IMG/VR virus record: IMGVR_UViG_3300032046_000075
Span: 1-40,904 of that record
Length of the DNA stretch: 40,904 nt
Reading direction: 5' to 3' (one strand)
Source of the DNA: a virus
Under the pieces are notes generated by a model. It worked only from the letters and a program-made list of their open reading frames with translations. It had not been told where the DNA came from and ran no database searches. The position numbers and the translations under genes are program-made. Positions within the stretch are counted from its first letter, which is position 1; each line of letters starts with the position of its first letter. Of this stretch, positions 405 to 40,904 are shown piece after piece.

Positions 405-1523
405 TCAACTACCCACGACTAAAGTCGTGGGCTTGTAGTTCAAGTTCCCGTCTGGGCAGACTACAATAGGCTGGTTGACTTCAGCCCTCCACTGAATATT
501 CTTAGCGGCGTTCAAATCGGCGTTCAACTCGAACCCGCAGGATCGGCACTTGAACTCTGATTGGCTGACCCTGTTACGCTTCTCGATGTGCCCACACACC
601 GAGCACCTTCTGCTCGTATTCCGTGGGTCCACCATCAGCACCGGCACACCCGCCACCCTCGCCTTATACTCGACGTAGGCTCGTAGCTGGTTGAACGCCC
701 ACTTACCGTGTCTCTCACGTTGCTTTCTCCTAACCGTGGTCTGAGCGCGTATGCCCTTCAAATCCTCCAGAGCAATCGCCCTCTTCGTGTCTTTAGCAAC
801 GACCACTAACTCCTTACTGATCTTATGGTTTACCTGTCTCTTGAACCTCGCTTCTCTACCTGATAGCTTCCTAAGATGCCTCTTAGCACTCTCTGTCCCC
901 ACATGTTGAAGTTCCGCCTTCACCCCCATGTAGTGTGCCCTAACGGATTCAACCTTCTCACCTGAGTAGGATACGCCGTCGCTTGTCGTCGCCAGTTTGA
1001 TGATGCCTAAGTCTACTCCCAGATAGCCTTCGGGTGTCAGTGGTGGCTCCTCTGGTTGCTCGACCACTAGACATAGGTAGAACTCGCCCTTTATGTAGAG
1101 TAGGTCGGCTTGACCCCTGATGCGTCTCTGATCTAGCTTCCCATAGGCTCCGACAAGTAGGGATACAATCACCCTGCCCTCAAGGGTTGTTAGGCTGACC
1201 TTCTCAAGCCCCTTGAAACTCATTATCCTCTGGTCGTAGATTATGGCTCCGTGGGGATCGAATAGATGCAGGTGCCGTCGCTCCGTCTTATAGGAGTCAA
1301 CCACCTTACTTACGGCTCTCACTGTTAGCTGGGCGGGTAACATGTATTGCTCCCTTATCCTGTAGTAGAGGATGTGGTGTAGCTTGTATTGATTGAAGGT
1401 CTTGGAATCGTAGGCTACCTTGGAGATGTCGTCGCAGGCGTGGTTGAAGGTCTCCATTGTTCTGAGTAGCTTTTGTCCCTGTTCCTCAGTGGGTTGTAGT
1501 TTGACCTTGAGAGTTAAGAGCAA
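405..1523 (-). CDS. tnpB: TnpB RNA-guided nuclease of a solo IS1341-type element
   Basis: A 372-residue protein of normal TnpB length. The RuvC-like catalytic residues are all present: Asp171 in GVDLG, Glu253 in ALEDL and Asp336 in NADLNAAKN. The four-Cys zinc finger (C307, C310, C326, C329) lies between the second and third RuvC motifs. TnpB proteins are omega-RNA-guided DNA nucleases that help IS200/IS605 elements persist; TnpA, the transposase, is not in this window. The gene lies between the proline-rich gene and the ATPase gene and points against both, as expected for an inserted element. The ORF is intact, so it may be functional. Element ends were not mapped precisely: right end near 400, left end between 1524 and 1547. 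Confidence 0.93.
   Translation of the reverse strand: MLLTLKVKLQPTEEQGQKLLRTMETFNHACDDISKVAYDSKTFNQYKLHHILYYRIREQYMLPAQLTVRAVSKVVDSYKTERRHLHLFDPHGAIIYDQRIMSFKGLEKVSLTTLEGRVIVSLLVGAYGKLDQRRIRGQADLLYIKGEFYLCLVVEQPEEPPLTPEGYLGVDLGIIKLATTSDGVSYSGEKVESVRAHYMGVKAELQHVGTESAKRHLRKLSGREARFKRQVNHKISKELVVVAKDTKRAIALEDLKGIRAQTTVRRKQRERHGKWAFNQLRAYVEYKARVAGVPVLMVDPRNTSRRCSVCGHIEKRNRVSQSEFKCRSCGFELNADLNAAKNIQWRAEVNQPIVVCPDGNLNYKPTTLVVGS
407..440 (-). ncRNA. tnpB 3'-end hairpin, possible end of an omega-RNA
   Basis: CCCACGACT (412-420) pairs with AGTCGTGGG (423-431) around a 2-nt loop. An outer AACTAC/GTAGTT stem with a GCTT bulge extends it to 407-440. It overlaps the last codons of tnpB. IS200/IS605 and IS1341 elements carry hairpins at their right end, and TnpB guide (omega) RNAs derive from the tnpB 3' end through the right end into flanking DNA. 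The hairpin is seen; the RNA role is inferred from the family. If correct, the guide would come from the flank at about 380-406 read on the minus strand. Confidence 0.55.
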
Positions 1524-3311: not shown

Positions 3312-3533
3312 ATGAGTACACGTAAAGAGGCTATGAAACAGGCTTGGAAAGCGTACGACGAGGCCAGGGCTTCGGCTCGGAAGGCGCTCAACGAGGCTAT
3401 GGCTCAGGCTGAGAAGGTGTTCGACGAAACCACGGATCAGGCTCAGAAGGCGTTCACCGAGGCCACGGATCAGGCTAAGGAAACGTTCACCGAGGCCATG
3501 GCTCAGGCTTGGAAGCTGCCCGAAAACGCTTAG
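3312..3533 (+). CDS. Small 11-residue-repeat helical protein
   Basis: A 73-residue protein starting ATGAGTACACG just after the endonuclease gene. From residue 10 it is built of five near-identical 11-residue units of the type AFTEATDQAKE/ALNEAMAQAEK, encoded by 33-bp units. Such 11-mers form long amphipathic or right-handed coiled helices, as in LEA and apolipoprotein-like proteins. No catalytic residues or Cys are present. The downstream gene at 4675 has an independent array of 11-mers. Possible roles are membrane or protein binding; no family recognised. Confidence 0.7.
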   Translation: MSTRKEAMKQAWKAYDEARASARKALNEAMAQAEKVFDETTDQAQKAFTEATDQAKETFTEAMAQAWKLPENA

Positions 3534-3546
3534 GAGACTAAAGTAG

Positions 3547-4230
3547 ATGGTTAGAATGTTCAGCTTCATAACCGAGACCTGGAACCCCCTAGCCGGGGGA
3601 CCATGCCCCGGCGAGTGCTCCTACTGCTGGGCCACCGGCTTGAAGAACCGATACAAGTATTCAAAATACCTCGGAGCCTGGCGCGTTGACGAGAAAGTGG
3701 TTGGCAAGACCTTCAAGCCGGGGGCCTTCGTCTTCGTCCAGGACATGGGCGACCTCTGGGCTCCCACTGTGCCATTTAGCATTCAGCGGAAAGTTCTCAC
3801 CAATATAACGGAAAACCCCAATTCTACCTTCTTATTGTTAACTAAATTTCCTGAAGGTTATGAAGCTTATGAAGATGGAATACCTGATAATGTAGTCCTC
3901 GGGATTACAATGGAGACTAACCGCAGTGTCTCCAAATTCTCTAAAGCTCCACCTCCCTATGATAGGCTGATTTCATTTGGCAACGCGACAAAAGATAATG
4001 GTATTCGTGGCTTCATAAGTATAGAACCCATTATGGATTTTGATAGAGAAATATTTTTACCTTGGCTTAACCTGGTTCACCCCTGGGCTGTGGCAGTGGG
4101 GTACGACAACTATAGCAACGGTTTACCCGAGCCGCCGCTAGCTAAGACGCGGGAGCTTATTGGGAGCCTGCGGAGGCGTGGAATCGCGGTCTACGAAAAA
4201 ACGCTTAGGGAGGCCAGGGTAGATGGGTGA
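3547..4230 (+). CDS. DUF5131 (phage Gp37/Gp68)-like CxxxCxxC protein
   Basis: A 227-residue protein. The N-terminus (TETWNPLAGGPCPGECSYCW) matches the DUF5131 family, in which a C-x3-C-x2-C motif (C20, C24, C27) resembles the radical-SAM iron-sulfur site. FVQDMGDLW near 64-72 and the TIM-barrel-like segments (LLLTKFP, VVLGITMET, FISIEPIMDF) also fit radical-SAM-like barrels such as spore photoproduct lyase relatives. Members are common in phages and archaeal elements, but the substrate is unknown. The gene ends in EARVDG*, and its stop overlaps the start of the next gene by 8 nt. The family call is from memory of the motif and not searched. Confidence 0.75.
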   Translation: MVRMFSFITETWNPLAGGPCPGECSYCWATGLKNRYKYSKYLGAWRVDEKVVGKTFKPGAFVFVQDMGDLWAPTVPFSIQRKVLTNITENPNSTFLLLTKFPEGYEAYEDGIPDNVVLGITMETNRSVSKFSKAPPPYDRLISFGNATKDNGIRGFISIEPIMDFDREIFLPWLNLVHPWAVAVGYDNYSNGLPEPPLAKTRELIGSLRRRGIAVYEKTLREARVDG

Positions 4231-4366
4231 GAACTTCGTCATCGTAAACGGTAAAATGATTACCGCGTGCAACTTCTGCCCCGATGGGGAGAAGTGCAAA
4301 AAAGTCCGGGTGCTCTGCTCAGTCTACATGAACTTCAAGGCAAAGGAGGCTAGGGTAGATGGGTGA
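4223..4366 (+). CDS. Small Cys-rich protein (47 aa)
   Basis: ATGGGTGAG overlaps the upstream stop by 8 nt, with a GGAGG ribosome site inside the end of the upstream gene. The 47-residue protein has a possible zinc site (CNFC, then two further Cys) and ends in KEARVDG, like both neighbours. No family recognised. Its position and the copied junctions support it as a real, translationally coupled gene. Confidence 0.65.
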   Translation: MGENFVIVNGKMITACNFCPDGEKCKKVRVLCSVYMNFKAKEARVDG

Positions 4367-4682
4367 GATGTTAGAGGAAAGGTATAAGGAACTTGGGCGA
4401 AAACGAGACTACACACTCAGGGGTTTCGGTGAATCGGATGGGGTGCCGGGGTTCTGGTGCCGTAGGGGGGAGTATAACAATCCCCTTGATTGTCTTCGTC
4501 AATGCGGTGCCTGTCTGAGTTGTGGAGAGAAGTTCGCGCCTATTAGGGCACATGATCAACTTGACAGAGCCCGATTTGATTGGGGCTTGATGGTGCTCAC
4601 CGGTGAAATCAAGCCACCGTTTGGAGACTTGGGTATTCTGCCGAGTAACTTGGTGGTGCTGGAGGCCAGGTTAGATGGGTGA
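4359..4682 (+). CDS. Cys-rich hypothetical protein (107 aa)
   Basis: Starts with ATGGGTGAG overlapping the upstream stop. Residues 34-56 hold five Cys (CRRGEYNNPLDC, CGAC, CGEKF region), consistent with a zinc-binding knuckle. The remainder is acidic/aromatic without a recognised motif, and the C-terminus is EARLDG. The same 5' and 3' junction cassettes flank it as its neighbours. Function unknown; a nucleic-acid-binding or adaptor role would fit the zinc knuckle. Confidence 0.65.
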   Translation: MGEMLEERYKELGRKRDYTLRGFGESDGVPGFWCRRGEYNNPLDCLRQCGACLSCGEKFAPIRAHDQLDRARFDWGLMVLTGEIKPPFGDLGILPSNLVVLEARLDG

Positions 4683-5106
4683 GAAATTGGATAGAAAAGC
4701 CTACATGAAAGCCTATGGGAAAGCTTACCGTGAGGCACATAAAGAGCAGAGTAAAGCCTACCGTGAGGCGCATAAAGAGCAGAGTAAAGCCTACTATGAG
4801 GCGCATAAAGAGCAGTATAAAGAGCAGATGAAAGCCTACTATGAGGCGCATAAAGAGCAGCGAAAAGCCTACCGAGAGGCGCATAGAAAACCCGGTAAAC
4901 ACAAGCCACACCTAACCGACGACCAGATACTCAAAACCTACTACGACAACCCAGGCAACACCTGGGCACAACTCGCGGAGAAGCTCGGGCTCAGCGAATC
5001 CACCACCAAGACGCGGATCGGGTTCGCCCTCATGCAGGAGTGCCGGGAATCCCCAACCTGCCCCATGAAGGCACTCCTACCCGAATACGAGGAGAACACC
5101 CCATGA
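4675..5106 (+). CDS. 11-mer-repeat protein with C-terminal helix-turn-helix
   Basis: A 143-residue protein. Residues 8-78 are tandem units of KAYREAHKEQS/KAYYEAHKEQR type (11 residues, one 4-residue insertion), strongly charged and helical. Residues about 84-130 form a helix-turn-helix: QILKTYYDNPGNTW then AQLAEKLGLSESTTKTRI. It is likely a DNA-binding protein with a long helical oligomerisation or spacer arm. Its stop overlaps the recombinase ATG (ATGA), so it could be an accessory or regulatory factor for the recombinase. This is inference from position. Confidence 0.7.
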   Translation: MGEKLDRKAYMKAYGKAYREAHKEQSKAYREAHKEQSKAYYEAHKEQYKEQMKAYYEAHKEQRKAYREAHRKPGKHKPHLTDDQILKTYYDNPGNTWAQLAEKLGLSESTTKTRIGFALMQECRESPTCPMKALLPEYEENTP

Positions 5107-5876
5107 GTGCCCTCGTTGAGGCTTCCCCCGCCGAACTCAGGAAACGCATCGCAGCCATCCCCAGCGGGGAAATCGAGGTACCCGACCAGAGCCCCCGCTT
5201 CCCAAACGGAGTCTGCCGCGTCGACGGCGACACCCTGCGCCACGCCGACATGCTCCTCCTCATCGGCGGCTTCCGCATCAACGAGGCCGTCACCAAGACG
5301 CGGCGCGGACACGCAAACACCAGCCACACCCTACGCATGGAGGCCACCGAGCACAAAGACTCGGGGGAGGAGGCCCTGCTGATCAGCTGCGGCGCCCTCA
5401 AGAAGCGCGTCCCCGAGACGCGGGAGTTCGCCGTGCCCCTCAAGCCGCGGCACGAGCCATTCGCGGAGCCCATACTCGACGCTTGGAACGAAGCCGGCGG
5501 CAAGAACTATTGCAGCCTCAGCGAACGCCAGGCATACCTCGTCAACCGCCACATCTTCGCCGGACGCGGCTATCTCATTGAGCAGCAGATAATATACCAG
5601 GTAGACGACTCGGGGCACGTCATCCGCGACCCAGATAACAGACGCCCCCTCATAGATCGCGTCATCAAGCCCCACCTCAAGCAGCAGAGCAACCACGGCC
5701 TACGCCACTGGCGCCTCGAAGAACTCGAAGCCGCCCAGCTCCAGGACCGCGAGATAACCAGCTACTTCAAATGGTCCTCGATGACGATGGGCATCAACCC
5801 CATGCGCACCCGATACGGGGCCGCCAAGTGGCACACCTACTTCGCGAAGCTACTCAAAAAGGCGGGGACAGACTAA
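5103..5876 (+). CDS. Tyrosine recombinase/integrase lacking the N-terminal arm
   Basis: A 257-residue protein from the ATG overlapping the upstream stop. LLLIGGFRINEAV (residues 51-63) carries the first catalytic Arg (R58). HGLRHWR (198-204) is the box II H-x-x-R-H motif. RYG (237-239) supplies a likely nucleophilic Tyr238. These are hallmarks of the tyrosine recombinase catalytic domain. Only about 45 residues precede it, so the usual SAM-like core-binding domain is missing or replaced, perhaps by the HTH protein upstream. A 60-residue spacer rich in turns lies between the boxes. Likely site-specific integration or resolution of the circle. Start at 5103 is chosen for the coupling. Confidence 0.75.
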   Translation: MSALVEASPAELRKRIAAIPSGEIEVPDQSPRFPNGVCRVDGDTLRHADMLLLIGGFRINEAVTKTRRGHANTSHTLRMEATEHKDSGEEALLISCGALKKRVPETREFAVPLKPRHEPFAEPILDAWNEAGGKNYCSLSERQAYLVNRHIFAGRGYLIEQQIIYQVDDSGHVIRDPDNRRPLIDRVIKPHLKQQSNHGLRHWRLEELEAAQLQDREITSYFKWSSMTMGINPMRTRYGAAKWHTYFAKLLKKAGTD

Positions 5877-6103: not shown

Positions 6104-6760
6104 CTAAATCAAGATACAGTGTTGACACTCCCACCCATCATCTTCCTCAAACACGTTCTGAGCCGGCAACAAGTTACGCAGACCCTTTTCTCTGAGTCTT
6201 ACTTTGGGGTTTAACTCATCTATCTTACACGCCCTCTCGAATAAGCCAGGATGATGTCGGGCTAGTCTCCACCACGAGGCTTTCGGTTGGAATGGACACA
6301 GCCAGCAACCCGATTTAGGTGGGAGAAAAAGACCCGCCTCGGTGATTATCTCCTTACACTTCGCCCGAGTGATGCCTTGTTCAACTAGGGGATACCTATA
6401 AGTGATTTTTCCTTTCTCCGTAATTCTTGCGCGGTGCTTCTCATCGTAAGCGATGCCAATATAGACTGTGCAGGGCTTCATCATGTATTTCTCCATTCGA
6501 CGATGCTTGAATTTCTCGGTACAGCTCCTGAACTTCATAAATGGGGCGTGACCTAGTTTTAGACACCAATCCTCTATTGTGATGCATCCCTCGACGGGGG
6601 CGTTTAGAATTGTAATTGGATAAGGATATGTCTTAAGGTAGACGTAGGTTTCTGGATACTCGCACCCCGTATCAGCGAAGACTTTCTCTGGTTGATGGTG
6701 AAGTACCTCAGCTAGGGCTACACTATTAACACCGGCCCCGAAACTCTGATATTCATTCAT
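6104..6760 (-). CDS. PAPS-reductase-like PP-loop protein
   Basis: A 218-residue protein of the adenine-nucleotide alpha-hydrolase (PP-loop) superfamily. It has a variant PP-loop SFGAGVNS at residues 6-13, FADTGCEYPET at 33-43 and CWLCPFQPKASWW in the C-terminal half. This viral/archaeal subfamily is usually annotated as phosphoadenosine phosphosulfate reductase-like, but few members are shown to reduce PAPS. Relatives act in sulfur or base modification of nucleic acids (DndC and TtcA-like). Several Cys could bind a cofactor or metal. The start ATG overlaps the upstream stop (ATGA). Proximity to a DNA methyltransferase and a deoxyribosyltransferase-like gene makes nucleic-acid modification a reasonable but unproven role. 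Confidence 0.75.
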   Translation of the reverse strand: MNEYQSFGAGVNSVALAEVLHHQPEKVFADTGCEYPETYVYLKTYPYPITILNAPVEGCITIEDWCLKLGHAPFMKFRSCTEKFKHRRMEKYMMKPCTVYIGIAYDEKHRARITEKGKITYRYPLVEQGITRAKCKEIITEAGLFLPPKSGCWLCPFQPKASWWRLARHHPGLFERACKIDELNPKVRLREKGLRNLLPAQNVFEEDDGWECQHCILI

Positions 6761-7020
6761 GGCGTAAACCTCTTTTGAAGTTGGATATCCAGTATCCTCT
6801 TCGCCGCCGACAGCGCCGCGAAGACCTCCGCCTCCGAACCCTCAATCAAGACCTCCTTCTCCCCATGCGCATTCACCACGTCCAACCGACGCACCCGGCG
6901 ACTCATCACCTGGGACTCATATGTCCCATACACCACCCGGCCCACGGGGTGAAGAAACAGCGACACACCCGACGCAGACGCCACATCCGCCACAAGACCG
7001 CGAAGACGATCAGTTTTCAC
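6757..7020 (-). CDS. Hypothetical protein (87 aa)
   Basis: Starts at a GTG overlapping the methyltransferase stop (GTGA) and ends overlapping the next ATG. The protein is alpha/beta with a basic middle (SRRVRRLDVV) and ends in KRFTP, echoing the GFTP end of the upstream gene. No family recognised. The tight coupling supports it as real. Confidence 0.65.
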   Translation of the reverse strand: MKTDRLRGLVADVASASGVSLFLHPVGRVVYGTYESQVMSRRVRRLDVVNAHGEKEVLIEGSEAEVFAALSAAKRILDIQLQKRFTP

Positions 7021-12778: not shown

Positions 12779-13027
12779 ATGAGTGAAAGAGTTAAGGAAA
12801 AGAGAAAAGTAGTCTATTTCTATAACGAGTTGGAGCAGCTTGTTGGGGAGGAGGAGACCCGCTTTGAGCCACTTGAAGGGGCTGCGCCCGAGTTCAGCGG
12901 CGTCGTGGGTACCCTGTCGCTTGGTCACGGCGTGGCTCCGCCTGAGCCCGCGGGGGAGTGGAGTATACTGAAAATCTATGAGAAGTCGGTGATTTGGATT
13001 CGCCACGGGCCGGGGGGGGCTTCTTGA
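12779..13027 (+). CDS. Hypothetical protein (82 aa)
   Basis: ATG at 12779 (a TTG at 12770 is possible), preceded by AGGA. Begins with a basic helix, then KVVYFYNELEQLVGEEE, with a Pro/Gly-rich middle and a C-terminal strand (WSILKIYEKSVIWI). The stop overlaps the next ATG (TGATG). No family recognised. Confidence 0.6.
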   Translation: MSERVKEKRKVVYFYNELEQLVGEEETRFEPLEGAAPEFSGVVGTLSLGHGVAPPEPAGEWSILKIYEKSVIWIRHGPGGAS

Positions 13028-13164
13028 TGGTTCTCTGTGTTCTCTGTAAATCCTGTGGAGACTATGATAAAGCCCTTGAGGTGTGCAATAAATTGCACAG
13101 CCGAGAAATGTTGAAGCATCCGGGTTACTGTGAGTTCAAGGTACCTGAGGAGGCTTCCCCGTGA
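13027..13164 (+). CDS. Small Cys-rich protein (45 aa)
   Basis: ATG shares a base with the upstream stop and the TGA overlaps the next GTG. Cys at residues 4, 7 and 10 (CVLCKSC), 20 and 35 suggest zinc binding. The end EEASP is shared with the following gene. Coupling on both sides supports it as real. Function unknown. Confidence 0.65.
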   Translation: MVLCVLCKSCGDYDKALEVCNKLHSREMLKHPGYCEFKVPEEASP

Positions 13165-13853
13165 GGGCTTCCCAGTGTTATCGGTGGGTGTATAGGAACC
13201 CCGATGGATCCTACCACAGCGAGAATGGGGGCGTGACGTGGCGCCTCGGCGAGTGGGTGAAGCACGCCGGCCCCCTACGCCTCTGCAAGAGTGGTCTGCA
13301 TGGCTGCCGAGACGCCCGTGATGCCCTTGATTACTCGGGCTACGGGGACGTGTTCATGGTAGCTGAGTACCGGGGGAAGGCGTCGAGAAGGAGGCCCGGT
13401 GGGGATACGAAGTTCTGCACCGGGGAGATGCGCCTCCTCTGGGAGGTCCCCGAGGGGGTGATCAGGCGCGCCGCGCTGGGCTTCGCGGAGCACGTCTACC
13501 CTCTCTGGGAGAAGGAGTACCCCGATGACTCGAGGGTCCGCGTGAGCCTTGACGCTACAAGGGCGTACCTTGACGATCCTACTCCTGAGAATGAGGTTAA
13601 GATGAACGAGGCTACTGAGGCTACTGGGGCTGCTGGGGCTGCTGGGGCTGCTGGGGCTGCTGGGGCTGCTTGGGCTGCTTGGGCTGCTTGGGCTGCTGGG
13701 GCTGCTGGGGCTGCTGAGGCTGCTAGGGCTGCTGGGGCTGCTGGGGCTGCTGAGGCTGCTAGGGCTGCTGGGGCTGCTGAGGCTGCTAGGGCTGCTGAGA
13801 CGAAGTGGCAACGTGACCACTTCAAGCAACTCATCAAGGAGGCTTCCCCGTGA
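13161..13853 (+). CDS. (xAA)n repeat phage-type protein, DUF7666-like N-terminus
   Basis: A 230-residue protein starting at a GTG inside GTGA. Residues 1-145 show the pattern of phage proteins with 'GGVTW ... LCKSGLHGCRDARDAL ... VAEYRG', which resembles DUF7666. Residues about 150-213 are an uninterrupted array of three-residue units GAA/WAA/EAA/RAA, encoded by a 9-bp GCTGCTGGG-type repeat. The C-terminal WQRDHFKQLIKEASP is charged. Similar Ala arrays follow this N-terminal domain in many phage proteins; their function is unknown. The array will form a long Ala-rich helix or collapse region. Repeat length changes keep the frame, so length variants should be tolerated. Confidence 0.75.
   Translation: MRASQCYRWVYRNPDGSYHSENGGVTWRLGEWVKHAGPLRLCKSGLHGCRDARDALDYSGYGDVFMVAEYRGKASRRRPGGDTKFCTGEMRLLWEVPEGVIRRAALGFAEHVYPLWEKEYPDDSRVRVSLDATRAYLDDPTPENEVKMNEATEATGAAGAAGAAGAAGAAWAAWAAWAAGAAGAAEAARAAGAAGAAEAARAAGAAEAARAAETKWQRDHFKQLIKEASP
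13608..13799 (+). repeat. 9-bp tandem repeat array (about 21 units)
   Basis: Units of GCTGCTGGG with one- or two-base variants (TGG, GAG, AGG in the third codon) run without interruption. All variation falls in the third codon of the unit, giving G, W, E or R. Blocks GAA-EAA-RAA recur as higher-order repeats, indicating growth by slippage and unequal exchange. Confidence 0.9.
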
Positions 13854-14134
13854 GCCGCGTCCGCTCCGCGGCTGAGGACCTGAAGGTCATCAACAAGACG
13901 CTGGAGAGGCTTGAGGCCAACGGCGTCGGTTTGGCGGATGCCGCCCAGGGGCTCCGCCGCGTCTCGAATGTCCTCGGCGTCGCGTTGCAGGAGCTTGAGG
14001 CGCATGAGGCGCGGCTGAAGGCGCTGGGTGATGATTTGGATGGTCATTTGTTTGCGCATGAGAAGTCTGAGTTCTCCGCCGCGGAGCTGAGGGAGTGGCT
14101 GGGGCTGCGGAGGGAGGAGAGGAAGAAGGAATGA
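13850..14134 (+). CDS. Helical coiled-coil protein (94 aa)
   Basis: GTG start overlapping the upstream TGA, with AAGGAGG as ribosome site. Nearly all residues favour helix with heptad hydrophobics (INKTLERLEANGVGLADAA, LQELEAHEARLKALGDDL). Likely a coiled-coil adaptor or oligomeric protein. Its stop overlaps the next ATG (ATGA). No family recognised. Confidence 0.65.
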   Translation: MSRVRSAAEDLKVINKTLERLEANGVGLADAAQGLRRVSNVLGVALQELEAHEARLKALGDDLDGHLFAHEKSEFSAAELREWLGLRREERKKE

Positions 14135-14718: not shown

Positions 14719-14946
14719 ATGCCTAAAATAGAGCCTAAGTTAGTGAAGCGTCCTTGTGGGGTTATGCTTATTACAAAGGTATGGAAGAGTGGTTCGAGTA
14801 TCAAATGCAGTAAAGAGGGTACTATGGTTTCTACGCCCGCCCCTAAAGATGAGGGATGGATGAAGGCTAGAATAGAGTTATTTTGTGAAGGCTGCAAATT
14901 CAACCCATCTTCTTGCGCTAAGGGAGGGGATGAGAAACGAAAATAA
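14719..14946 (+). CDS. Cys-containing hypothetical protein (75 aa)
   Basis: ATG directly after the upstream TAG, with GAGGAGGG 14 nt upstream. Cys residues (RPCGVM, IKCSKEG, FCEGCKF, SSCAKGG) could bind one zinc. The last part (AKGGDEKRK) is copied in the non-coding-looking region at 15421-15441. Function unknown. Confidence 0.6.
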   Translation: MPKIEPKLVKRPCGVMLITKVWKSGSSIKCSKEGTMVSTPAPKDEGWMKARIELFCEGCKFNPSSCAKGGDEKRK

Positions 14947-15339: not shown

Positions 15340-15477
15340 GTGAAGGGCGGAGATATAGTGTCAACCTATCCCCCCCTTTCACATCTCCTAAATCCGAGGC
15401 GGAGAAGATGGCTCTGCGCGGCGCTAAGGGAGGGGATGAGAGGTGAGGCGCGTGGTGGCTCCCCCGGCGTCTCCTAG
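15340..15477 (+). CDS. Possible small basic protein (45 aa)
   Basis: GTG start with GGAGGG 7 nt upstream, overlapping nothing upstream. The product is Arg/Pro-rich with one Cys. It overlaps the next frame (15443) by 35 nt. The region contains copied fragments of upstream genes, so it may be a decayed stretch rather than a functional gene. Confidence 0.35.
   Translation: MKGGDIVSTYPPLSHLLNPRRRRWLCAALREGMRGEARGGSPGVS
15421..15441 (+). repeat. Copy of the 3' end of the 14719 gene
   Basis: The 21 nt gcgctaagggaggggatgaga also occur at 14915-14935. Just before it, gaggcggagaag recalls 14267 and 14485, and gctctgcgcggc recalls 14587. The block 15395-15441 therefore looks like a mosaic of fragments from the two upstream genes. 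Confidence 0.7.
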
Positions 15478-16788: not shown

Positions 16789-17715
16789 TTAATCCTCATT
16801 CTTTTGACTCTCCACGACTCTCCTTATGCCATCCTCAATCTTCACCTGTGGCGTCCACCCGAGTATTCTCCGCGCTATGGAGCAATCGTAGCTCATCCTC
16901 TGAATCTCCCCCAGGGAGCGCGGCCTAGCCTCATACTTCACGGGTTTATCGAGGACGCGGCACACCGTTTTCAGGGCATCCACCACGGAGGTTTCCACTC
17001 CACTACCCAGCAGAATCGGCCCCACGGATTCCTTCACCTCCGCGCCTTTAACGAGGGCGTCCACAATATCGCCCACGTAGATGAAGTCCCTCGTTTGCTG
17101 ACCGTCCCCCGTTATGTAGGGTGTGTCTCCGCGCTTGAGTGTGTCTATAAATGTGGCGACTACGGGGTTCCACTCTGAGGAGACGCGTTGCCGGGGACCG
17201 TAGACAGTGGCGAATCTGAAGATGGTGTACGGTATCCCGTAGGCTTTGGCGTATGCTTTGATCATGTGCTCCGCCGCCAGCTTATCCACGTCATAGGGAG
17301 TTGTGGGGTTCTCGGGGTTTCCCTCTTTTATTGGCTGAATCGCTGAGTCGTAGATGCCTGAATTACTCGAAAATATCACCCGCGCCCCACATCGGCGCGC
17401 ATATTCAAGCATCATCACAGTTCCGATTAGGTTCACTTCCACGTCTCGAATCGGGTTCACATAGCTGCGGCTACGGGGCCAACAGGCGAGGTGATAGATT
17501 ACGTCGGCGTCGCCCCAGTTGAACCGCTTATCCAGTTTACTAGAGATGTCCTGTTGGATGAAGTTTATTTTCCCCGAGTCTAGGGGACCCTGTATATTAG
17601 TTAATGATCCATTACTGAGGTCGTCAATCACCGTCACGTCGTCACCCCGCGCCACCAGGCGTTCAACTAAGTGTGATCCCACGAAACCGCAGCCGCCGTC
17701 CACAATAATCCGCAT
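16789..17715 (-). CDS. NAD-dependent nucleotide-sugar epimerase/dehydratase
   Basis: A 308-residue extended short-chain dehydrogenase. Rossmann motif GGCGFVGSH (residues 7-15), acidic NAD-binding residue at VIDDLS, Ser cluster SSNSG (116-120) and catalytic YDVDK (141-145). YGPRQR and the C-terminal LGEIQRMSYD...ILGWTPQ are typical of UDP-glucose 4-epimerase or dTDP-glucose 4,6-dehydratase relatives. Length is normal. It probably makes an NDP-sugar for the glycosyltransferase in the same cluster. Exact substrate cannot be told. Last gene of the cluster, 1 nt after its neighbour. Confidence 0.9.
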   Translation of the reverse strand: MRIIVDGGCGFVGSHLVERLVARGDDVTVIDDLSNGSLTNIQGPLDSGKINFIQQDISSKLDKRFNWGDADVIYHLACWPRSRSYVNPIRDVEVNLIGTVMMLEYARRCGARVIFSSNSGIYDSAIQPIKEGNPENPTTPYDVDKLAAEHMIKAYAKAYGIPYTIFRFATVYGPRQRVSSEWNPVVATFIDTLKRGDTPYITGDGQQTRDFIYVGDIVDALVKGAEVKESVGPILLGSGVETSVVDALKTVCRVLDKPVKYEARPRSLGEIQRMSYDCSIARRILGWTPQVKIEDGIRRVVESQKNED

Positions 17716-17716
17716 T

Positions 17717-18238
17717 TTATTTCACCTCATCATTAAACGGAACATAGTATATTAGGAAGCTTCCCCCATCCCCAAGGGTGTTAGCGAAGAAGTCTACCTG
17801 TAGTACCTTCCCGGCTTCAACGTAGTAGTAGAAGCCTCGGGGAAGTATAACCGTTGCTGTGGCTTGTCCACCTGTTTGGCTGTAGATTGCGCTTAGGTGA
17901 AACATCGTGTCATTACTATAGGTGTCAACAGAGAAGTCATGTTTACCTGTGGATAATAGTATCTCAATTCCCTGCGTGGCTGAGACGCATGAAATTAGGC
18001 TCGCTCCAATCACCATCACCGGTTCATCGAAAACTATCTCTTGGATGTGATTGGACCAGCCCTGCTTCTCCCCCACTAGGATGTATTCGATTGTCTTCAC
18101 CTCTTTGGCGGTGGATGGGTTATTAACCTCGTAGGTGTTCTGGTAAAAGTAGTCGCTACAATTTATTTCGTCTATCCTAAAAATTAGTGTTGTTTGAAGC
18201 AGAATAATTATCACTAGAAGAGCCTTAACGGTATTCAC
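17717..18238 (-). CDS. Membrane-anchored exported protein (173 aa)
   Basis: GTG at 18238 shares GTGA with the methyltransferase stop. Residues 4-21 are a hydrophobic anchor or signal (VKALLVIIILLQTTLIF). The rest is beta-rich (EYILVGEK, VMVIGASLISCV, TATVILPRGFYYYVEAG, FLIYYVPF), like a small extracellular jelly-roll or virion-surface domain. No family recognised. It lies inside the glycan cluster, so it may be the protein that is decorated or an assembly partner. Confidence 0.65.
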   Translation of the reverse strand: MNTVKALLVIIILLQTTLIFRIDEINCSDYFYQNTYEVNNPSTAKEVKTIEYILVGEKQGWSNHIQEIVFDEPVMVIGASLISCVSATQGIEILLSTGKHDFSVDTYSNDTMFHLSAIYSQTGGQATATVILPRGFYYYVEAGKVLQVDFFANTLGDGGSFLIYYVPFNDEVK

Positions 18239-18888
18239 GGCGTTTTCGCCTCTATGAAGCACCCCAACGAGACACTATTTCCATCTATGTGGTAAAACCG
18301 CGTAATCCGGAACCCGTGGCCGCGTAGAAGCAGCGACAGTTCATCATAGGTGTAGTGGTGGGGGTGATCTATATCCCCCGGCGTGTGACGGTGGTAAAGC
18401 GTCTCCCAGAGGTAAAGCGTCTTCACCCCAGCCCCTTTAAGCCGTTTAATCGCTGTTATAGGGTCTGCTATGTGGTCAAACGTCGTGACAAACGCGGCCG
18501 CATCCAGGGGGGGTAGTTCGATGTCCTCGATTTTTCCCCGCTTGAACTCTGATAGCCACGGGATAGGCTTCAACTGGGGAAGAGGGTCAACCCCGAGGAT
18601 ATATCCCTCCCCCCGAATCAGGGGGAGATACCCCGCCTCACCGTAGCTTACCCCCGCGAACACGCCGTTACCGCATCCCACGTCAACCATCCGCGAAGGC
18701 ATACCCACGAAGACGCTGAAATGCCGCCCCACAGACTTTACATACTCTATATACCGGGGATCCATTGGGTTTCCAGCCCAAGAGACGTAGCGCCTCTGCG
18801 CTCTCTCCCACCGAACATTAACGGGCACCAGCCCCGCGTAGACGTGGTTAAACGCTTGTCTCAAGTATCTTACGCATCTCTTGAACAT
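18235..18888 (-). CDS. Class I SAM-dependent methyltransferase
   Basis: A 217-residue protein from the ATG at 18888 with GGAGGG upstream. SAM motif I is MVDVGCGNG near residues 67-75; ILGVDPLP follows as motif II, and FVTTFDHI as motif IV. HHYTYDELSLLLRGHGFRI is the usual C-terminal helix-strand of Methyltransf_11/23 enzymes. It overlaps the upstream gene by about 41 nt. In a glycan cluster the likely substrate is a sugar or lipid-linked intermediate. Substrate unknown. Confidence 0.8.
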   Translation of the reverse strand: MFKRCVRYLRQAFNHVYAGLVPVNVRWERAQRRYVSWAGNPMDPRYIEYVKSVGRHFSVFVGMPSRMVDVGCGNGVFAGVSYGEAGYLPLIRGEGYILGVDPLPQLKPIPWLSEFKRGKIEDIELPPLDAAAFVTTFDHIADPITAIKRLKGAGVKTLYLWETLYHRHTPGDIDHPHHYTYDELSLLLRGHGFRITRFYHIDGNSVSLGCFIEAKTP

Positions 18889-19243
18889 CAAGGCCCTCCT
18901 TCTCCGCGAGTGCCATAAGCGTCTTCCACATAGGTATCATCACGGGGGTTAGCTTCGTCTGGCTGTAGGGGTTGCTCTCCACGTTGATTGTCTGCTCGAT
19001 TCGGTAGAATGGCATCTTCTTGAAGTGAAACCACCCCGCCAACGCGCCACTAGGGTAGACCACCACGACAAGGGCTAGGCCAAACTCTAGGACTCCGGGG
19101 AAGACGCTCTTTAATATGGGGATGTTTTGAATCGCTAGGTAGTAGACGGTTGTGCAGAGGCTTATCATGGTGAGGGGTAAACTGAGGTATATGCTGTACC
19201 CGGTGCGGAAGTAGTAGAAGCTGCGCATCAGGAAGTTGATCAA
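18848..19243 (-). CDS. Membrane protein (131 aa)
   Basis: TTG at 19243 overlaps the previous stop (TTGA). Two predicted TM helices: residues about 18-37 (YLSLPLTMISLCTTVYYLAI) and 50-70 (LEFGLALVVVVYPSGALAGW), followed by a soluble amphipathic C-terminus (MWKTLMALAEKEGLDVQEMRKIL). No family recognised. Together with the 59-residue gene it may form a membrane complex in the glycan pathway. Confidence 0.65.
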   Translation of the reverse strand: MINFLMRSFYYFRTGYSIYLSLPLTMISLCTTVYYLAIQNIPILKSVFPGVLEFGLALVVVVYPSGALAGWFHFKKMPFYRIEQTINVESNPYSQTKLTPVMIPMWKTLMALAEKEGLDVQEMRKILETSV

Positions 19244-19419
19244 TTTTGAATCTCCCTTATCGTATCCAGTACGTAGCTTATTATGTACAGTATCGGCTCG
19301 TAGAACCACGGCGGAGTATAGCTTAAAACCGTCGCGCCCAGCGTCACCAAGTAGACGGAAAAATATGGGGTGTAATTATAATTATCCTTGGCGCTTTTTC
19401 GGGATGGTTTCTCAGTCAA
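19240..19419 (-). CDS. Small membrane protein (59 aa)
   Basis: Not an obvious ORF because it starts with TTG at 19419, sharing TTGA with the glycosyltransferase stop; its own TGA overlaps the next TTG in the same way. After a basic N-terminus (EKPSRKSAKDNYNYT) it has one long or two short hydrophobic helices (YFSVYLVTLGATVLSY, EPILYIISYVLDTI). The repeated TTGA coupling supports it. Confidence 0.6.
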   Translation of the reverse strand: MTEKPSRKSAKDNYNYTPYFSVYLVTLGATVLSYTPPWFYEPILYIISYVLDTIREIQN

Positions 19420-20507
19420 TTTAAAGCCTCTTCGTAGATTTTCTTAAGCCGCTCAGCTACCATCGAATAACTTAGGTGGCGGAGCGCGAAGCTCCGACCC
19501 GCTTCGGATAGGCGTCGACGCAGTGTATCACTCTCAAGGCTATGCAGTCCTTCGAGGATTTCGGCTTCAGATGAGGCGTTCACACACGGGGGAGCCTCGC
19601 CGAAGTGTTCACTAGCGGTCGGTGCGAAGTAGATCATGAGGGATGCGCCACAAGCCATAGCCTCAAAACCCGTGGTCCCAGAGGCACCCAGCGTAAACTG
19701 GTCTAGAACCGCGTCCACGTTTTGATACCGCTCTATCAGCGCGGGTTTGCTCATCGGGGGAACCCATGTCACCGAGTCTTTAACAGGTTCAACTATGCGG
19801 TGTGCCTCCTCAACATCCTCTGAGTACCCCCAGTCAACGAGGGTTAGATGCGCCTTAGCCCCACTCTCAACATATTTTACGTATGTGCGGAGTAGGCGAT
19901 CGTTTCCCTTAACGTCGAAGACCATGCGCGCTGGGTGAAGAAGCTCAAGAATCGAATTATCCCTTTCTCCGCGAGGACAGTACCGATCAGTGTTAATCGC
20001 GAATGGCACAAACTCCATGCGCTGGGGATGAACGCCCGCAACCATCTCAGCCGTATCCGTGTTAGTGTAGGTAACACACTTTGCTTCTCGGTAGGTCCTC
20101 AGCCCCAGTTTCACGCGGTTACTATTCCTCAAGGCGCCGTAGCCTTGGCGGATGAAACCCGCCTCATACACTAGATATGGAGTCAGAGAGAATGAGAGGT
20201 GAAGCACCGTGGGAAAGTGAAGGTGAAGTAGATCGTAGCCGCGCGTTATCTTGTTAAGCTGAATTACCTTCCTTATGAAGTTCCGCCGATCACCCTTAAC
20301 GGTTTTAACCCAATCCGGCGAGGGGGGTAATTCATCGAGGCGCATCTTGTAGGGGTCGCCGTTTATTCGGTGGATCTCCCACTGGGGAAGACTCATACCG
20401 AAGTCGTTTTCATCAATGATCAGCTCAGCGTCAACGCCGGCTCCGCGAAGAGCCTCAACGCAGGCAAAGCCGTCGTTCGCCATATTACCGACGTGACATA
20501 CGCGCAT
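19416..20507 (-). CDS. GT-B (GT4-like) glycosyltransferase
   Basis: A 363-residue protein from ATG 20507 with GGAGGTGG upstream. N-terminal Rossmann features: VCHVGNMANDG, DLLHLHFP. The acceptor-side segment YTNTDTAEMV and FVPFAINTDRY lead into the donor domain, with the loop GASGTTGFEAMACG carrying the conserved Glu of retaining GT4 enzymes. Length and order match family 4 glycosyltransferases. It would transfer a sugar made by the epimerase onto a lipid or protein. It overlaps the asparagine-synthase gene end by 23 nt. Confidence 0.85.
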   Translation of the reverse strand: MRVCHVGNMANDGFACVEALRGAGVDAELIIDENDFGMSLPQWEIHRINGDPYKMRLDELPPSPDWVKTVKGDRRNFIRKVIQLNKITRGYDLLHLHFPTVLHLSFSLTPYLVYEAGFIRQGYGALRNSNRVKLGLRTYREAKCVTYTNTDTAEMVAGVHPQRMEFVPFAINTDRYCPRGERDNSILELLHPARMVFDVKGNDRLLRTYVKYVESGAKAHLTLVDWGYSEDVEEAHRIVEPVKDSVTWVPPMSKPALIERYQNVDAVLDQFTLGASGTTGFEAMACGASLMIYFAPTASEHFGEAPPCVNASSEAEILEGLHSLESDTLRRRLSEAGRSFALRHLSYSMVAERLKKIYEEALN

Positions 20508-21267
20508 CAAGCCACCTCCCAGTTAAATAGGCATTAACCAGCATATTCGCCTCACGGTGCGTAGCAGGGGCGTCAACGTGAAGCGTGGGTTTTATCTCCG
20601 CGTCCCACACAAGCGGGTTCTCCCAGTTCACCCGCCCCGCATACTTTGGCCTCTCAAGGACCTCCGCCGGCAGGTGCCCCCGGTAGGCTTGGCGGAGGTT
20701 CCACTTATCCATCGGCGCATCATGGGGATCAACCCAGTACTTCAGCGTCTCGCTGATTGGAAGCCCGATAAATGGGGTATGTATTTTCACCCCATAGATT
20801 GTAGCGAGTTGCCTATGCGTCGGTAGGCTCCACTCAAGGACGCCACCCCAGTACTCTTGATAGGACACGCGGGGCTTGTTTATATATCCGCCGAAGTGCT
20901 CATCCAATCCCTCAGCTATATAAATATTCTCCGCGCCGATACTCTTTGCCAACCTGTAACCGAAGACGGGCCATAGGTTGAACCTTGGGAAGTCGAGAAG
21001 GGGCGCAGTCTCCGCGAATGTCTTTAATATGTCTCTGGCGGTGACTTCGTGGTATCGTGCTCCGTAGTATTTGGCGACTTCGTAGGATCCTCGATACTCC
21101 ATCTCCCCCGGTAACCGGATGTGGATGGCATCCACGGATTCAACTGTAAGTTCCGTCAGGTGCTTGAGTAGAATAGTGGAATCTAAGCCGCCGCTTATGA
21201 ATACGGTGGGGCGGTGAGTCGGTTTTATAGATGCGCGGATAAGCCCACGCAATGCCTTATAATTCAT
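20485..21267 (-). CDS. Asparagine synthase-type amidotransferase domain without glutaminase
   Basis: A 260-residue protein consisting of the AsnB C-terminal PP-loop domain: SGGLDST (25-31), AEGLDEHFGGY (near 118-128), THTPFIGLP and the C-terminal KWNLRQAYRGHLPAEVLERPKYAGRV pattern (conserved Arg/Pro/Lys; shown only in part). The N-terminal glutaminase domain of AsnB is absent, so ammonia must come from another protein or from solution. Such short proteins in surface-glycan clusters (WbpG-like) amidate sugars or make lasso-like linkages. ATG overlaps the RHH stop by 4 nt. Confidence 0.85.
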   Translation of the reverse strand: MNYKALRGLIRASIKPTHRPTVFISGGLDSTILLKHLTELTVESVDAIHIRLPGEMEYRGSYEVAKYYGARYHEVTARDILKTFAETAPLLDFPRFNLWPVFGYRLAKSIGAENIYIAEGLDEHFGGYINKPRVSYQEYWGGVLEWSLPTHRQLATIYGVKIHTPFIGLPISETLKYWVDPHDAPMDKWNLRQAYRGHLPAEVLERPKYAGRVNWENPLVWDAEIKPTLHVDAPATHREANMLVNAYLTGRWLDARMSRR

Positions 21268-21383
21268 TTCTTGACTCCTATGAGTCGCTTTATGGTATCT
21301 TCGTAGGATTCCCTGGGTTGCTTTCGCAGCTTCTTAAGAGCCGCTTTAGTCTCGGTGCTTAACTGGATTGAGGATACTCCCAT
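21264..21383 (-). CDS. Short RHH/antitoxin-like regulator (39 aa)
   Basis: ATG at 21383. SSIQLSTETKAALKKL (strand plus helix 1) followed by QPRESYEDTIKRLIG (helix 2) is the standard archaeal VapB/DUF7557-like ribbon-helix-helix. No toxin partner is visible: the next gene is the asparagine synthase. It heads the glycan cluster and probably autoregulates from the CTATAG palindrome directly upstream. Confidence 0.75.
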   Translation of the reverse strand: MGVSSIQLSTETKAALKKLRKQPRESYEDTIKRLIGVKK

Positions 21384-21385
21384 AA

Positions 21386-21445
21386 CTATAGAGTATCTAT
21401 AGGAGCGTATAAGTATTTTTAAGTCCCTCCACCCTAGTGTAAACT
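21386..21445. promoter_or_regulatory. Divergent promoter/operator with CTATAG repeats and CCCTAGT element
   Basis: CTATAG-AGTAT-CTATAG (21386-21402) is a symmetric double hexamer next to the RHH start, an operator-like spacing of 11 bp. TATA boxes: minus CTTAAAAATA and plus TATAAGTATTTTTAA share 21403-21422. CCTCCACCCTAGT follows (to about 21438), the same string as at 2796-2808. ACCCTAGT...ACTATGGGT forms an imperfect inverted repeat just before the plus-strand ATG at 21446. Confidence 0.6.
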
Positions 21446-21610
21446 ATGGGTAAAGTTGCTGAGAAGCTGTGGGAAGCCAACTCAAAGCTCCCCGCTAACG
21501 TGAAGAAGGGAACAGACCTCATTATACGGGGCGCGTTAAAGTGGCGTCAATCCTCCCAGAGGCGTGGAAAAGAGTTTGTTAAGAATCAGCGCAAGAAGTT
21601 GAGGATTTAG
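21446..21610 (+). CDS. Small basic protein (54 aa)
   Basis: The only plus-strand gene between two minus-strand blocks. Its own TATA box and CCCTAGT element precede the ATG. The protein is strongly basic (KKLRI, KWRQSSQRRGKEFVKNQRKK), likely a nucleic-acid binder or small regulator. Its stop overlaps the end of the spike gene by 4 nt on the opposite strand. No family recognised. Confidence 0.6.
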   Translation: MGKVAEKLWEANSKLPANVKKGTDLIIRGALKWRQSSQRRGKEFVKNQRKKLRI

Positions 21611-24600
21611 CGCCTCCGCGCGAGTAGGATGAAGACCACCCCGGCTACTACCACGATTATGAGCCAGTAGGGGAGACCGCCGCCAACTGCGCCGAGCCAC
21701 GGATCACCTGAGACTATGAGGTTCAGCATCACAGACGCGGCGCGTGATACCACGAAGTTGAAGACGCCGAGGGCACCACTACTAAGCATCAACGCCAAAG
21801 ACGCGGCCTTGTAAACGTCAAGCCCCTTGGCAGCCGCGAGGCTTATAGCGATTGTCTGCGCGGCGGCGCGGGTATAGTTAATGGCGACAACGATGACGCT
21901 CCGCGTCGCATCGCTTAGCCAAGTTATTCCCTGCGCGGCGGCGCGGGTGAACTCGCTGAACACCGAGGCCGCGTTAGCCACTGTGAATCCCTGAGTCGCG
22001 TCGCGTAGCGCCTCAATGAGCCTACCCCCGCTTAGGATTGTGACTATTCCCTGAGTAGCTGATCGTCCTACTTCGATGAGTTTACCCGCCCCATTTGTGA
22101 TGCTGATGCTAAGTCCAACGAGGGCGGACACGATTTGGGCGCTTATCCCCTCTAGGCTGACGCTGATGTTTAGCGTCACGTTTTTCAAGACCTCGATTAG
22201 GTGACTCACGTAGAGGTTCATCATAATGCCTTGGGTAGCGACTCGCCCAAACTCAGCCAACCTATCCGCGCTAAGCGTCGCCGCGATTGTCTGTGAGGCT
22301 ACTTTGCCTACTTCGATGAGTTTACCCGCCCCATTTGTGATGCTGATGCTAAGTCCAACGAGGGCGGACACGATTTGGGCGCTTATCCCCTCTAGGCTGA
22401 CGCTGATGTTTAGCGTCACGTTTTTCAAGACCTCGATTAGGTGACTCACGTAGAGATTCATCATAATGCCTTGGGTAGCGACTCGCCCAAACTCAGCCAA
22501 CCTATCCGCGCTAAGCGTCGCCGCGATTGTCTGTGAGGCTACTTTCCCCACTTCGATTAGGCGAGCCGCCGAGTTTCCGAGGGTTAGACTTACTGAGGTG
22601 GCAACATCCAGTATGATGCCCCTAGCCCCGGCGACTGTGAGGCCTATATTCTGTGAGGCTGCTTTGCCTACTTCGATGAGTTTAGTCGTCGCGTCTGCGA
22701 AGGTGAGTCCCTGCGTTGCTGACCTTAGCCACTCACCTAGCCTCATAGTGCTTGACGCGGCGCCTAGGCTCAGGGCGGCGTCTCTGAGGTATTCTTGTAG
22801 CCCCGCTAGGAACTCTGTGAGGCTTCCCGAGGTGAGTGTGAGCGTCTGCGCGGCGGATCGAAGGTAGTCCCCGAGGTATGAGGCGGCGTTGTTAAGCGTC
22901 ATGCCCTGCGTCGCGGCTCGCAGCGCTTCGTAGAGTCTCGCGCCGCCCTGCGTTATGGTGATGCTGAGGCTTATGGAGACTTCGACGATTATCCCTCGGA
23001 GGCTGTTGGCGGCGAAGGGTATGGCCTGCGCCGCGGCCCTAGTGGCTTCAATTAGGCGCGTTGCCGCGGGGGATAAGCTGAGTATCTGTGAGACGCCGCG
23101 GACCCACTCATTGAAGGCGTCTGCAGCGTTTCCGAGTGTTAGGGCCTGTGATGCACTTTTACCCGCCTCAAGTAGCCGCGCGGCTGTATTCGTCACCGTT
23201 AAGCCCAGTGACGTTGTAACTGAAGATATGAAGGTTCTCACTGCATCCGCTGAGAAGATTATGCTCTGAGATGCGCTTTTACCTATCTCAACCAGCCTCA
23301 CGGCGGCGTTTGTGAAGGTGAAACTCGCCGTGGCTGCTCTGAAGTACTCCGTGACCCCAGTGATGAACTCCGCGAGTGTTGAGCCCGCCCAAGTTATTCC
23401 CTGGGATACTATTCGGGTGAACTCGGCTAGGCGGTCTGAGCTGAGGGCGGTGGAGATGGCTTGGCTTACCGCCTTTAGCACCTCTATTAGGCGCGCTGCG
23501 TTGGGGGCGAATGTGAGTGTAGTGGTGGCTGCCCGCATCCACTCAAACAGGCCCCCGACTCCGCTGGTTAATGTCACGCCCTGGGTTACGCCCCTTAGCA
23601 TCTCCGCGAGACGCCCAGCCGCACCGCTAAAAGTGATGCTCTGAGCCGTATCTAAAGATACTTCGATTAGTCGGGTGATGGCGCTCGTCATCGTTAGGGA
23701 TTGAGCCGCTGCTTTCCCAACGTCAAGTCCACGCGCTGCTGAGAACGTGCCCATGATTGCCTGTGATGCGGCTCGCGTTATCTCAATGAACTTCGCCGCT
23801 GATGAGGATAGGGCTATTGCCTGCGTTGATGCTCTTAGATATTCCCCGAATCTGGCGGTGGATGATGCCAACGCGACGGCGAGGTTCACGGCCTTATCCA
23901 TTATCAGTCCACGCGCTGAGTTTAGTCCCATCGTGAGGGCGAGTGTGGCTGCTCTGCCGCGTTCAAGAAGGTTTGCCACGCTGGATGCTAGGCTGAGGCT
24001 CTGGGTTGTGGCGCGGGTAGCGGTGAGTAATCTCGTAGAGGAGACGCCCATTGTTAGGGATTTTGCCCCAGTTTTTGTGACTTCGATGAGTCTCGTAGCG
24101 GATTTGGTGAATGTCAGGCTTTTTGATGCGGCTTTGTAGCTGAATATGAGTCGGAACTCGGCTGTGTAGGTGTCCGTGTCCGTGGCGGTTGCGTCGTCGG
24201 TTGTTATTGTTTGCACGTTGCAGTTTCCGAGGGCGGGTACTTGGGTGAACTTGATCTTGAAGGCTATCTTGTCGGTGTCGGTGTCTATGTTGACTCTTAC
24301 TGAGCCTGACTCTGAGCTTATGCCGTTTGGGTCGCTTGTCTCGCTGAATACGCCGGTGCTCTGTGTCCAGAGGTAGACGCTGGTTTTGCTGTCGCTTGTC
24401 GTGATCGTGATTTGAACGGTATAGAGGTTGGCTACTAGGTCAACATCGGTTACGGTCATGTTGATCCAGCCGAGGACATTGTAGTCGAAGGTGGCGGTGC
24501 TGTCGCAGGCGTCGTTTACGGGGGCGGTGTTTGTTATGGTGGGTTTGAAGTAGCCCGCGTACATGAAGTAGCCTGCCGTGTTAAGCCCCGCGTAGAGTTC

Positions 24601-40287: not shown

Positions 40288-40904
40288 ATGACAAGAAAGT
40301 CTCCCTACCGTCACCCAGTTCGAAGCTATACCCGTGAAGGCCACCGCGTAGACAGATATGTGCGCGGCGAAGGCAAGAAACCCGTGGAACCAACAACGCT
40401 TCTATCTAATAACGAACGCAATAATGAGAGAGCCCTTGGATACCGCCGAGTAGCCGAGAGACGCATCCCCATACCTGATCGCCGCCGAGTTCAAGTGGGG
40501 TGGGAAGAACCTCCCGCTGAAACCAAAATGGGTGCCAAAATATATTATAAACCAATAAAATTCAAGGGTGTGGAACGCACCAAGTATGATGCCCAGGGAA
40601 ATTTCTATAAATACATGGAGAGGGTATATCGCAAAACGGGTGAAGGAATTACACGCGATGAGATGTGGGTAAAGCAAATCCCCATCTATCAAGATGCTCC
40701 CATCACTCTTCCCCCACCTGAACCCACAGACAAGAACATGCCCGGACCATACAATCCCACAGACAAGGACATGCCCGGACCATACAATCCCATCACTCTT
40801 CCCCCACCTGAACCCACAGACAAGAACATGCCCGGACCATACAATCCCACAGACAAGGACATGCCCAGACCATACAATCCCATCACTCTTCCCCCACCTG
40901 AACC
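40288..40904 (+). CDS. 5' part of origin-spanning proline-rich repeat protein
   Basis: ATG 40288. Residues 1-37 (TRKSPYRHPVRSYTREGHRVDRYV...) are a basic domain shared with the 88-residue protein at 36372. A charged middle follows (KYDAQGNFYKYMERVYRKTGEGI). From about residue 138 come 30-residue Pro-rich repeats (ITLPPPEPTDKNMPGPYNP TDKDMPGPYNP). The frame continues at position 128 of the window and ends at 320. The repeat count is uncertain because the assembly ends inside the array. Likely an extended virion or adhesin-linker protein; function inferred. Confidence 0.85.
   Translation, partial: MTRKSPYRHPVRSYTREGHRVDRYVRGEGKKPVEPTTLLSNNERNNERALGYRRVAERRIPIPDRRRVQVGWEEPPAETKMGAKIYYKPIKFKGVERTKYDAQGNFYKYMERVYRKTGEGITRDEMWVKQIPIYQDAPITLPPPEPTDKNMPGPYNPTDKDMPGPYNPITLPPPEPTDKNMPGPYNPTDKDMPRPYNPITLPPPE
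40701..40904 (+). repeat. 90-bp tandem repeats in the proline-rich gene
   Basis: Units at 40701-40790 and 40791-40880 plus a partial unit from 40881, continuing at 104-127 after circular closure. Unit 2 differs from unit 1 by one g-to-a change (40877 area). A 30-bp sub-repeat (ACAGACAAG-ACATGCCC-GACCATACAATCCC) occurs twice per unit. Confidence 0.9.
40778..40904. repeat. Terminal overlap, copy 2 (circular closure)
   Basis: Identical to bases 1-127; see the entry there. Confidence 0.85.

Follow-up and report, generated by a model that had tools for sequence, protein, structure and literature searches.

Repeated sequences at gene borders have been described in several groups of viruses. The closest case to the one considered here is that of the Cluster I mycobacteriophages Island3 and Brujita, for which Pope and co-workers reported a full-site/empty-site pair and proposed general recombination between the Island3 repeats, calling this the first such case in mycobacteriophages (PMC3029335). 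In Island3 the last 58 nt of gene 67 are repeated, with 5 differences, at the end of gene 68; the two copies enclose an orphan gene. Brujita has one copy, joined on both sides to the outer flanks found in Island3 (an empty site). The boundary sequences of lambdoid phages are named in the same paper (PMC3029335). In Cluster K mycobacteriophages, start-associated sequences (SAS) are described as short repeats at the starts of genes from different families (PMC3203893). The promoter stem-loop cassettes (PeSL) of T4 and a motif of HGTV-1 are motifs that recur at gene borders, for which a role in shuffling has been proposed and which are found in an archaeal virus among others (PMC3950731). Here we analyse a 40,904-nt stretch of viral DNA that comprises the whole of IMG/VR virus record IMGVR_UViG_3300032046_000075 (the window), in which a 24-nt junction, GGAGGCYAGGKTAGATGGGTGAGA (J), joins successive genes three times. 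The most probable explanation is gain and loss of genes at a boundary sequence through recombination, either ordinary or between short homologies, the border that holds the ribosome site being the repeated unit; on our best reading this is a process known in kind from the published bacterial virus case and unusually repeated in this virus. The copies and the genes that they join are as follows.

3547–4230, plus strand: DUF5131 (phage Gp37/Gp68-like) protein, 227 amino acids (Pfam PF07505, E 5.3e-14), the probable donor of the junction via its conserved C-terminus KTLREA
4209–4232, plus strand: J1, junction copy 1, the native DUF5131 3' end, a Shine–Dalgarno site and the start of the 47-amino-acid gene
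4223–4366, plus strand: Cys-rich orphan protein, 47 amino acids, C-terminus EARVDG
4345–4368, plus strand: J2, junction copy 2
4359–4682, plus strand: Cys-rich orphan protein, 107 amino acids, C-terminus EARLDG
4661–4684, plus strand: J3, junction copy 3
4675–5106, plus strand: 143-amino-acid protein with 11-residue repeats and a winged helix-turn-helix (HTH_24; Pfam PF13412, E 1.1e-7)

The initial annotation had described an identical string at three gene junctions (near 4210, 4346 and 4663). Three 24-nt matches do begin at 4209, 4345 and 4661, although ‘identical’ was slightly too strong, as pairwise comparison shows 1, 1 and 2 differences in the 24 positions (22–23 identical). No further copy with up to 3 mismatches lies elsewhere in the window, and in shuffled sequence 0.00 matches are expected and three matches were seen in 0 of 100 shuffles. 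The proposed coding content of the string (a gene end, a ribosome site and the next start) was confirmed: each copy contains the end of the previous gene (EARVDG or EARLDG and the stop), a Shine–Dalgarno site, the overlapping start ATGGGTGA and, in the next frame, a TAG. The spacing is GGAGG, 9 bases, ATG. The TAG is in frame with the new gene and immediately 5' of its ATG, and the TGA of the previous gene is five bases downstream of that ATG. The four open reading frames (ORFs; 3547–4230, 4223–4366, 4359–4682 and 4675–5106) overlap by 8 nt at every junction. The three unit lengths (676, 136 and 316) are all 1 modulo 3, as this overlap geometry demands. Other viral contigs also contain short AGGAGG-ATG motifs, as might be expected if strong ribosome sites arose by chance or by convergence, but outside GGAGG and ATG the three copies agree pairwise at 15/16, 15/16 and 14/16 unconstrained positions, and a common ribosome-site consensus is therefore insufficient by itself to account for them. 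With none expected in shuffles as well, chance is refuted for J1–J3 and as a general explanation is barely credible.

Homologues of the DUF5131 protein are present in 45 of 256 Bathyarchaeia genomes, and a [LIM]RxA motif lies near the C-terminus in 22 of 30 fetched Bathyarchaeia loci (counted by eye), the window version being KTLREARVDG. One homologue (L106) ends KTLREAWNEH, with GGGAGG within its REA codons and a frame that opens with ATG before the gene is finished, and the homologue at a viral locus (L023) ends LLRERWDG. This conserved LREA C-terminus argues that DUF5131 is the native source of the left half of the junction. The best reading of the ends of the 47- and 107-amino-acid genes is then that the 3' end of the DUF5131 gene was grafted onto them by copying from J1; copying from J1 to J2 and J3 is the direction that best explains the data. 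The shared tails are the only meaningful match between the three proteins, and no DNA repeats linking the array genes beyond the junction were found. Near-identical borders beside dissimilar bodies suggest that it was the border and not the gene that was copied, or else that genes were placed between existing copies. A further, diverged copy, additional to the three of the initial annotation, lies in front of the array.

3527–3560 (approximate), plus strand: J0, AAAACGCTTAGGAGACTAAAGTAGATGGTTAGAA, directly before and over the DUF5131 start; its local alignment to J1 scores 31, with 0 of 1000 shuffles as high

The match between J0 and J1 reaches further upstream (AAAACGCTTA, the KTL codons) with more divergence, and J0 could be the remnant of an older copy of the DUF5131 gene end. 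The direct repeats are arranged head-to-tail, as they would be after tandem duplication of a gene together with its border, the bodies then diverging while the ribosome site was conserved. J0, with its longer portion of the DUF5131 3' end, may have had such an origin, but for the array as a whole it is distinctly unlikely, given borders that are identical at 22–23 of 24 positions, unconstrained ones included, and bodies that differ in length and resemble one another only in the tail.

The border is made up of the final codons of one gene with their stop, a Shine–Dalgarno site embedded in the sequence, and the start of the following gene, which overlaps them. Under gene gain and loss at the boundary sequence, it would have originated as the native DUF5131 3' end, whose LREA codons supply the GGAGG (J1), and its copies would then have come to end the two orphan genes (J2 and J3), the older J0 preceding DUF5131. 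A segment between two border copies would gain a ribosome site, a start, a stop and translational coupling, and its neighbours would be left unbroken. Segments were most likely gained via short-homology recombination at the junction, and the direct repeats left behind could also delete them; both the insertion (recombination) step and the coupling are what we infer from this arrangement.

A second duplicated junction (K), also additional to the three copies first annotated, is unrelated to J and consists of 18 nt repeated exactly on either side of one gene.

13148–13165, plus strand: K copy 1, AGGAGGCTTCCCCGTGAG, the end of ORF 12994–13164 (EASP and stop) and the start of 13161–13853
13161–13853, plus strand: 230-amino-acid protein between the K copies, with weak PHROG matches
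13837–13854, plus strand: K copy 2, AGGAGGCTTCCCCGTGAG, the end of 13161–13853 (EASP and stop) and the start of 13850–14134

In viral_contigs (IMG/VR) the K pattern has one exact match, in single copy, at an apparent GTGAG start. Two other candidates were left out of all counts. Candidate M is an exact 21-nt repeat, GCGCTAAGGGAGGGGATGAGA, at 14915–14935 and 15421–15441, with a shared AKGGDE that lies near the C-terminus in the first copy; gene calls at the second copy are unclear. Candidate H comprises similar junctions, GGTTYACGCCRTGAA, at 7020 and 6760 on the minus strand with shared tails R(G)FTP and stop, and is weak (local score 20, under the shuffle limit).

The array lies immediately upstream of a gene that raises the question of a dedicated mobilizing enzyme.

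5103–5876, plus strand: putative tyrosine recombinase, directly 3' of the array; its start context is its own and unrelated to the junction

Residues R58, K101, H198, R201, W224 and Y238 of this protein are invariant in a 6-row alignment, and we take them to be the tyrosine recombinase motif. There was no Pfam or PDB sequence match, and the structure model is of low confidence (predicted local distance difference test score, pLDDT, 50) and too poor for use. The position of the gene would suit an integron-like array mobilized by the neighbouring recombinase. Recombinase sites normally carry paired inverted arms, however, and no inverted repeat of at least 7 nt was found in the junction regions; moreover the K junction is different in sequence and 8 kb distant. 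Mobilization of this kind is very unlikely, and the protein may simply be the viral integrase.

A parallel to gain and loss at a boundary sequence was found in the Haloferax lemon-shaped virus LSV-48N (L151, PP151251), in which an exact 25-nt junction, GGAGGTGACCGCCAGTGAGCGACGA, is present at both borders of a methyltransferase gene (19121–19702), so that this gene and the one upstream both end GGDRQ and stop. The G+C content at third codon positions (GC3) of the methyltransferase gene is 0.577, as against 0.745–0.828 in ten other listed same-strand genes (16989–24528), a composition that looks foreign. A methyltransferase from a Halorussus plasmid aligns with the LSV-48N enzyme over its full length, ends GGMR and stop, and has GGAGGT in the equivalent place, which points, by inference, to a crossover at the ribosome site. 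In J, K and LSV-48N alike, the repeat has its left edge at GGAGG. It is conceivable, though rather doubtful, that gene capture at the ribosome site is a recurrent event in archaeal viruses, or at least in lemon-shaped ones. The Shine–Dalgarno site and start would serve as a universal short homology, an incoming segment would be spliced between two copies of one border and so acquire its start and stop together, and the shared C-terminal tail would mark the event. As for the suggestion in the initial annotation that genes between such borders could be swapped or duplicated like cassettes, the near-copy borders, the unrelated orphan bodies, the units of 1 modulo 3 and the parallels in LSV-48N and Island3/Brujita speak for it, but nothing indicates a dedicated system like an integron; the suggestion is partly supported by the analysis, and swapping or duplication of these particular genes through the junction repeats would be possible.

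Start contexts (64 nt) were compared for 48 curated starts in the window, giving 561 same-strand pairs. The five best of the 561 are all local (J1–J3, J1–J2, J2–J3, the K pair and J0–J1), with 0 of 1000 shuffles as high for each, and scores of at least 31 were reached by 4 of 46 adjacent pairs and 1 of 515 non-adjacent pairs, namely J1–J3. With annotated starts, the adjacent pairs at this level were 0/79 in TM4, 1/66 in ANMV-1, 1/35 in LSV-48N, 0/59 in vir524 and 0/67 in lambda; the ANMV-1 match begins past the start codons of a pair of genes that both carry a tail fibre annotation, and may reflect paralogy. A wider set of viral loci had been fetched as relatives of the DUF5131 or HTH gene and is thus a non-random sample: 89 loci were reduced to 76 by removal of redundancy and 11 of the 76 were not callable, leaving 65. 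For these controls a codon-based gene caller replaced a cruder automatic one, whose locus counts had been inflated by redundant loci. Scores of at least 14 were found for 5 of 1650 pairs of adjacent starts and 7 of 17331 pairs of starts more than two genes apart (p 0.002), an excess that suggests that the process extends beyond this virus. The same comparison bears on whether the junction is instead a selected regulatory element associated with starts, acting in translation or protein binding and with no role in gene exchange. Every J copy does sit on a start with GGAGG at constant spacing, and SAS show that such elements exist (PMC3203893). Yet the SAS of TM4 are dispersed (a score of at least 31 in 2/78 pairs of second neighbours and 8/3003 far pairs, with the adjacent count given above), whereas the window pairs are local: the junction is unused at the other starts of the window, and its only three matches lie within 476 nt rather than at many starts. 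The K and LSV-48N junctions also differ in sequence, and there is therefore no shared element. A purely regulatory role is on balance unlikely.

Several observations weigh against gene gain and loss at the boundary. The window starts were curated with the repeats already known, so the adjacency ratios lean toward the reading that we favour, and the crude automatic caller gave 0 of 49 adjacent pairs in the window, because it picked overlapping reverse ORFs. The G+C content of the 47- and 107-amino-acid genes (0.500 and 0.525) is unremarkable against 0.509 for the genome, and low GC3 is not confined to the methyltransferase gene of LSV-48N (gene 13424–13717 has 0.592). Finally, no relative of this virus in which the site is empty or holds other genes was found in IMG/VR, genome_contigs, the 256 Bathyarchaeia genomes, phages or plasmids. 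In strict and relaxed scans the junction pattern was absent from viral_contigs, and it was likewise absent from genome_contigs and the phage and plasmid collections; two of the 256 Bathyarchaeia genomes have one match each at 3 mismatches (none for a reversed control pattern), which we take as chance. Relatives of the window sought through its integrase or ATPase in viral_contigs were not found, and a literature search for the general phenomenon gave nothing relevant besides the Island3-type case.

The 47-amino-acid protein belongs to no family in Pfam, PHROGs or NCBIfam. The 107-amino-acid protein has no relatives in viral_contigs or the phage collection, and weak partial matches in 3 of the 256 Bathyarchaeia genomes, two of them containing internal stops. 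Coiled-type tandem repeats of 33 nt (11 residues) occur in two unrelated proteins flanking the array (3312–3533 and 4706–4918), the first of which is the gene upstream of it.

3312–3533, plus strand: 73-amino-acid coiled protein with 11-residue repeats, upstream of the array

The first and last 127 bases of the record are identical (1–127 and 40778–40904, a direct repeat), and it therefore probably represents a whole circular genome, about 40,777 bp in length; 33-nt repeats within ORF 51–320 lie across this terminal region. A TnpB-like gene (408–1523, minus strand) has 81% identity to a gene in a Candidatus Bathyarchaeota genome and the ATPase has a weak match to LSV-48N, from which the virus likely infects Bathyarchaeia, although TnpB genes transfer among hosts. 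Elsewhere in the window are a phosphoadenosine phosphosulfate reductase family protein (6104–6760, minus strand; phrog_424, E 1e-36), a minus-strand run of genes (16789–21267) judged by reading to resemble epimerase, methyltransferase and glycosyltransferase, perhaps for surface sugar modification, with an asparagine-synthase-like protein (20485–21267; NCBIfam) within it, and an 1881-amino-acid protein (21607–27252) with periodic 126-nt repeats at 24827–25670.

The array bears on how viruses acquire orphan genes. A border holding stop, ribosome site and start together would make any inserted segment expressed immediately, and the shared tail would be a readable scar of the event; if the process were general, such scars would let recent gene gains be counted in single genomes without relatives. 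Among known systems the window array most resembles that of Island3 and Brujita, in that direct repeats of a gene end flank unrelated genes, an orphan gene lies between copies of the 3' end of the upstream gene, and consecutive unrelated proteins have a common C-terminal tail. In Island3, however, the repeat is 58–60 bp, upstream of the start and single, with the relative Brujita as the empty site, whereas the window repeat, of about 24 nt, has the ribosome site and start at its centre, is used three or four times and belongs to an archaeal virus. LSV-48N has the same junction anatomy around a gene but a different junction sequence. SAS are intergenic and dispersed genome-wide, whereas the window repeat is local and lies within coding sequence, across a stop and a start. 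PeSL cassettes combine an inverted repeat with a promoter element, where J has no inverted repeat of 7 nt or more; nor does J have the inverted arms of an integron array. Lambdoid boundary sequences are short conserved gene borders that act as recombination sites and are common to different genomes, and lambda itself gave no adjacent pair in the start-context comparison; they are shared between genomes, whereas the copies described here lie within one.
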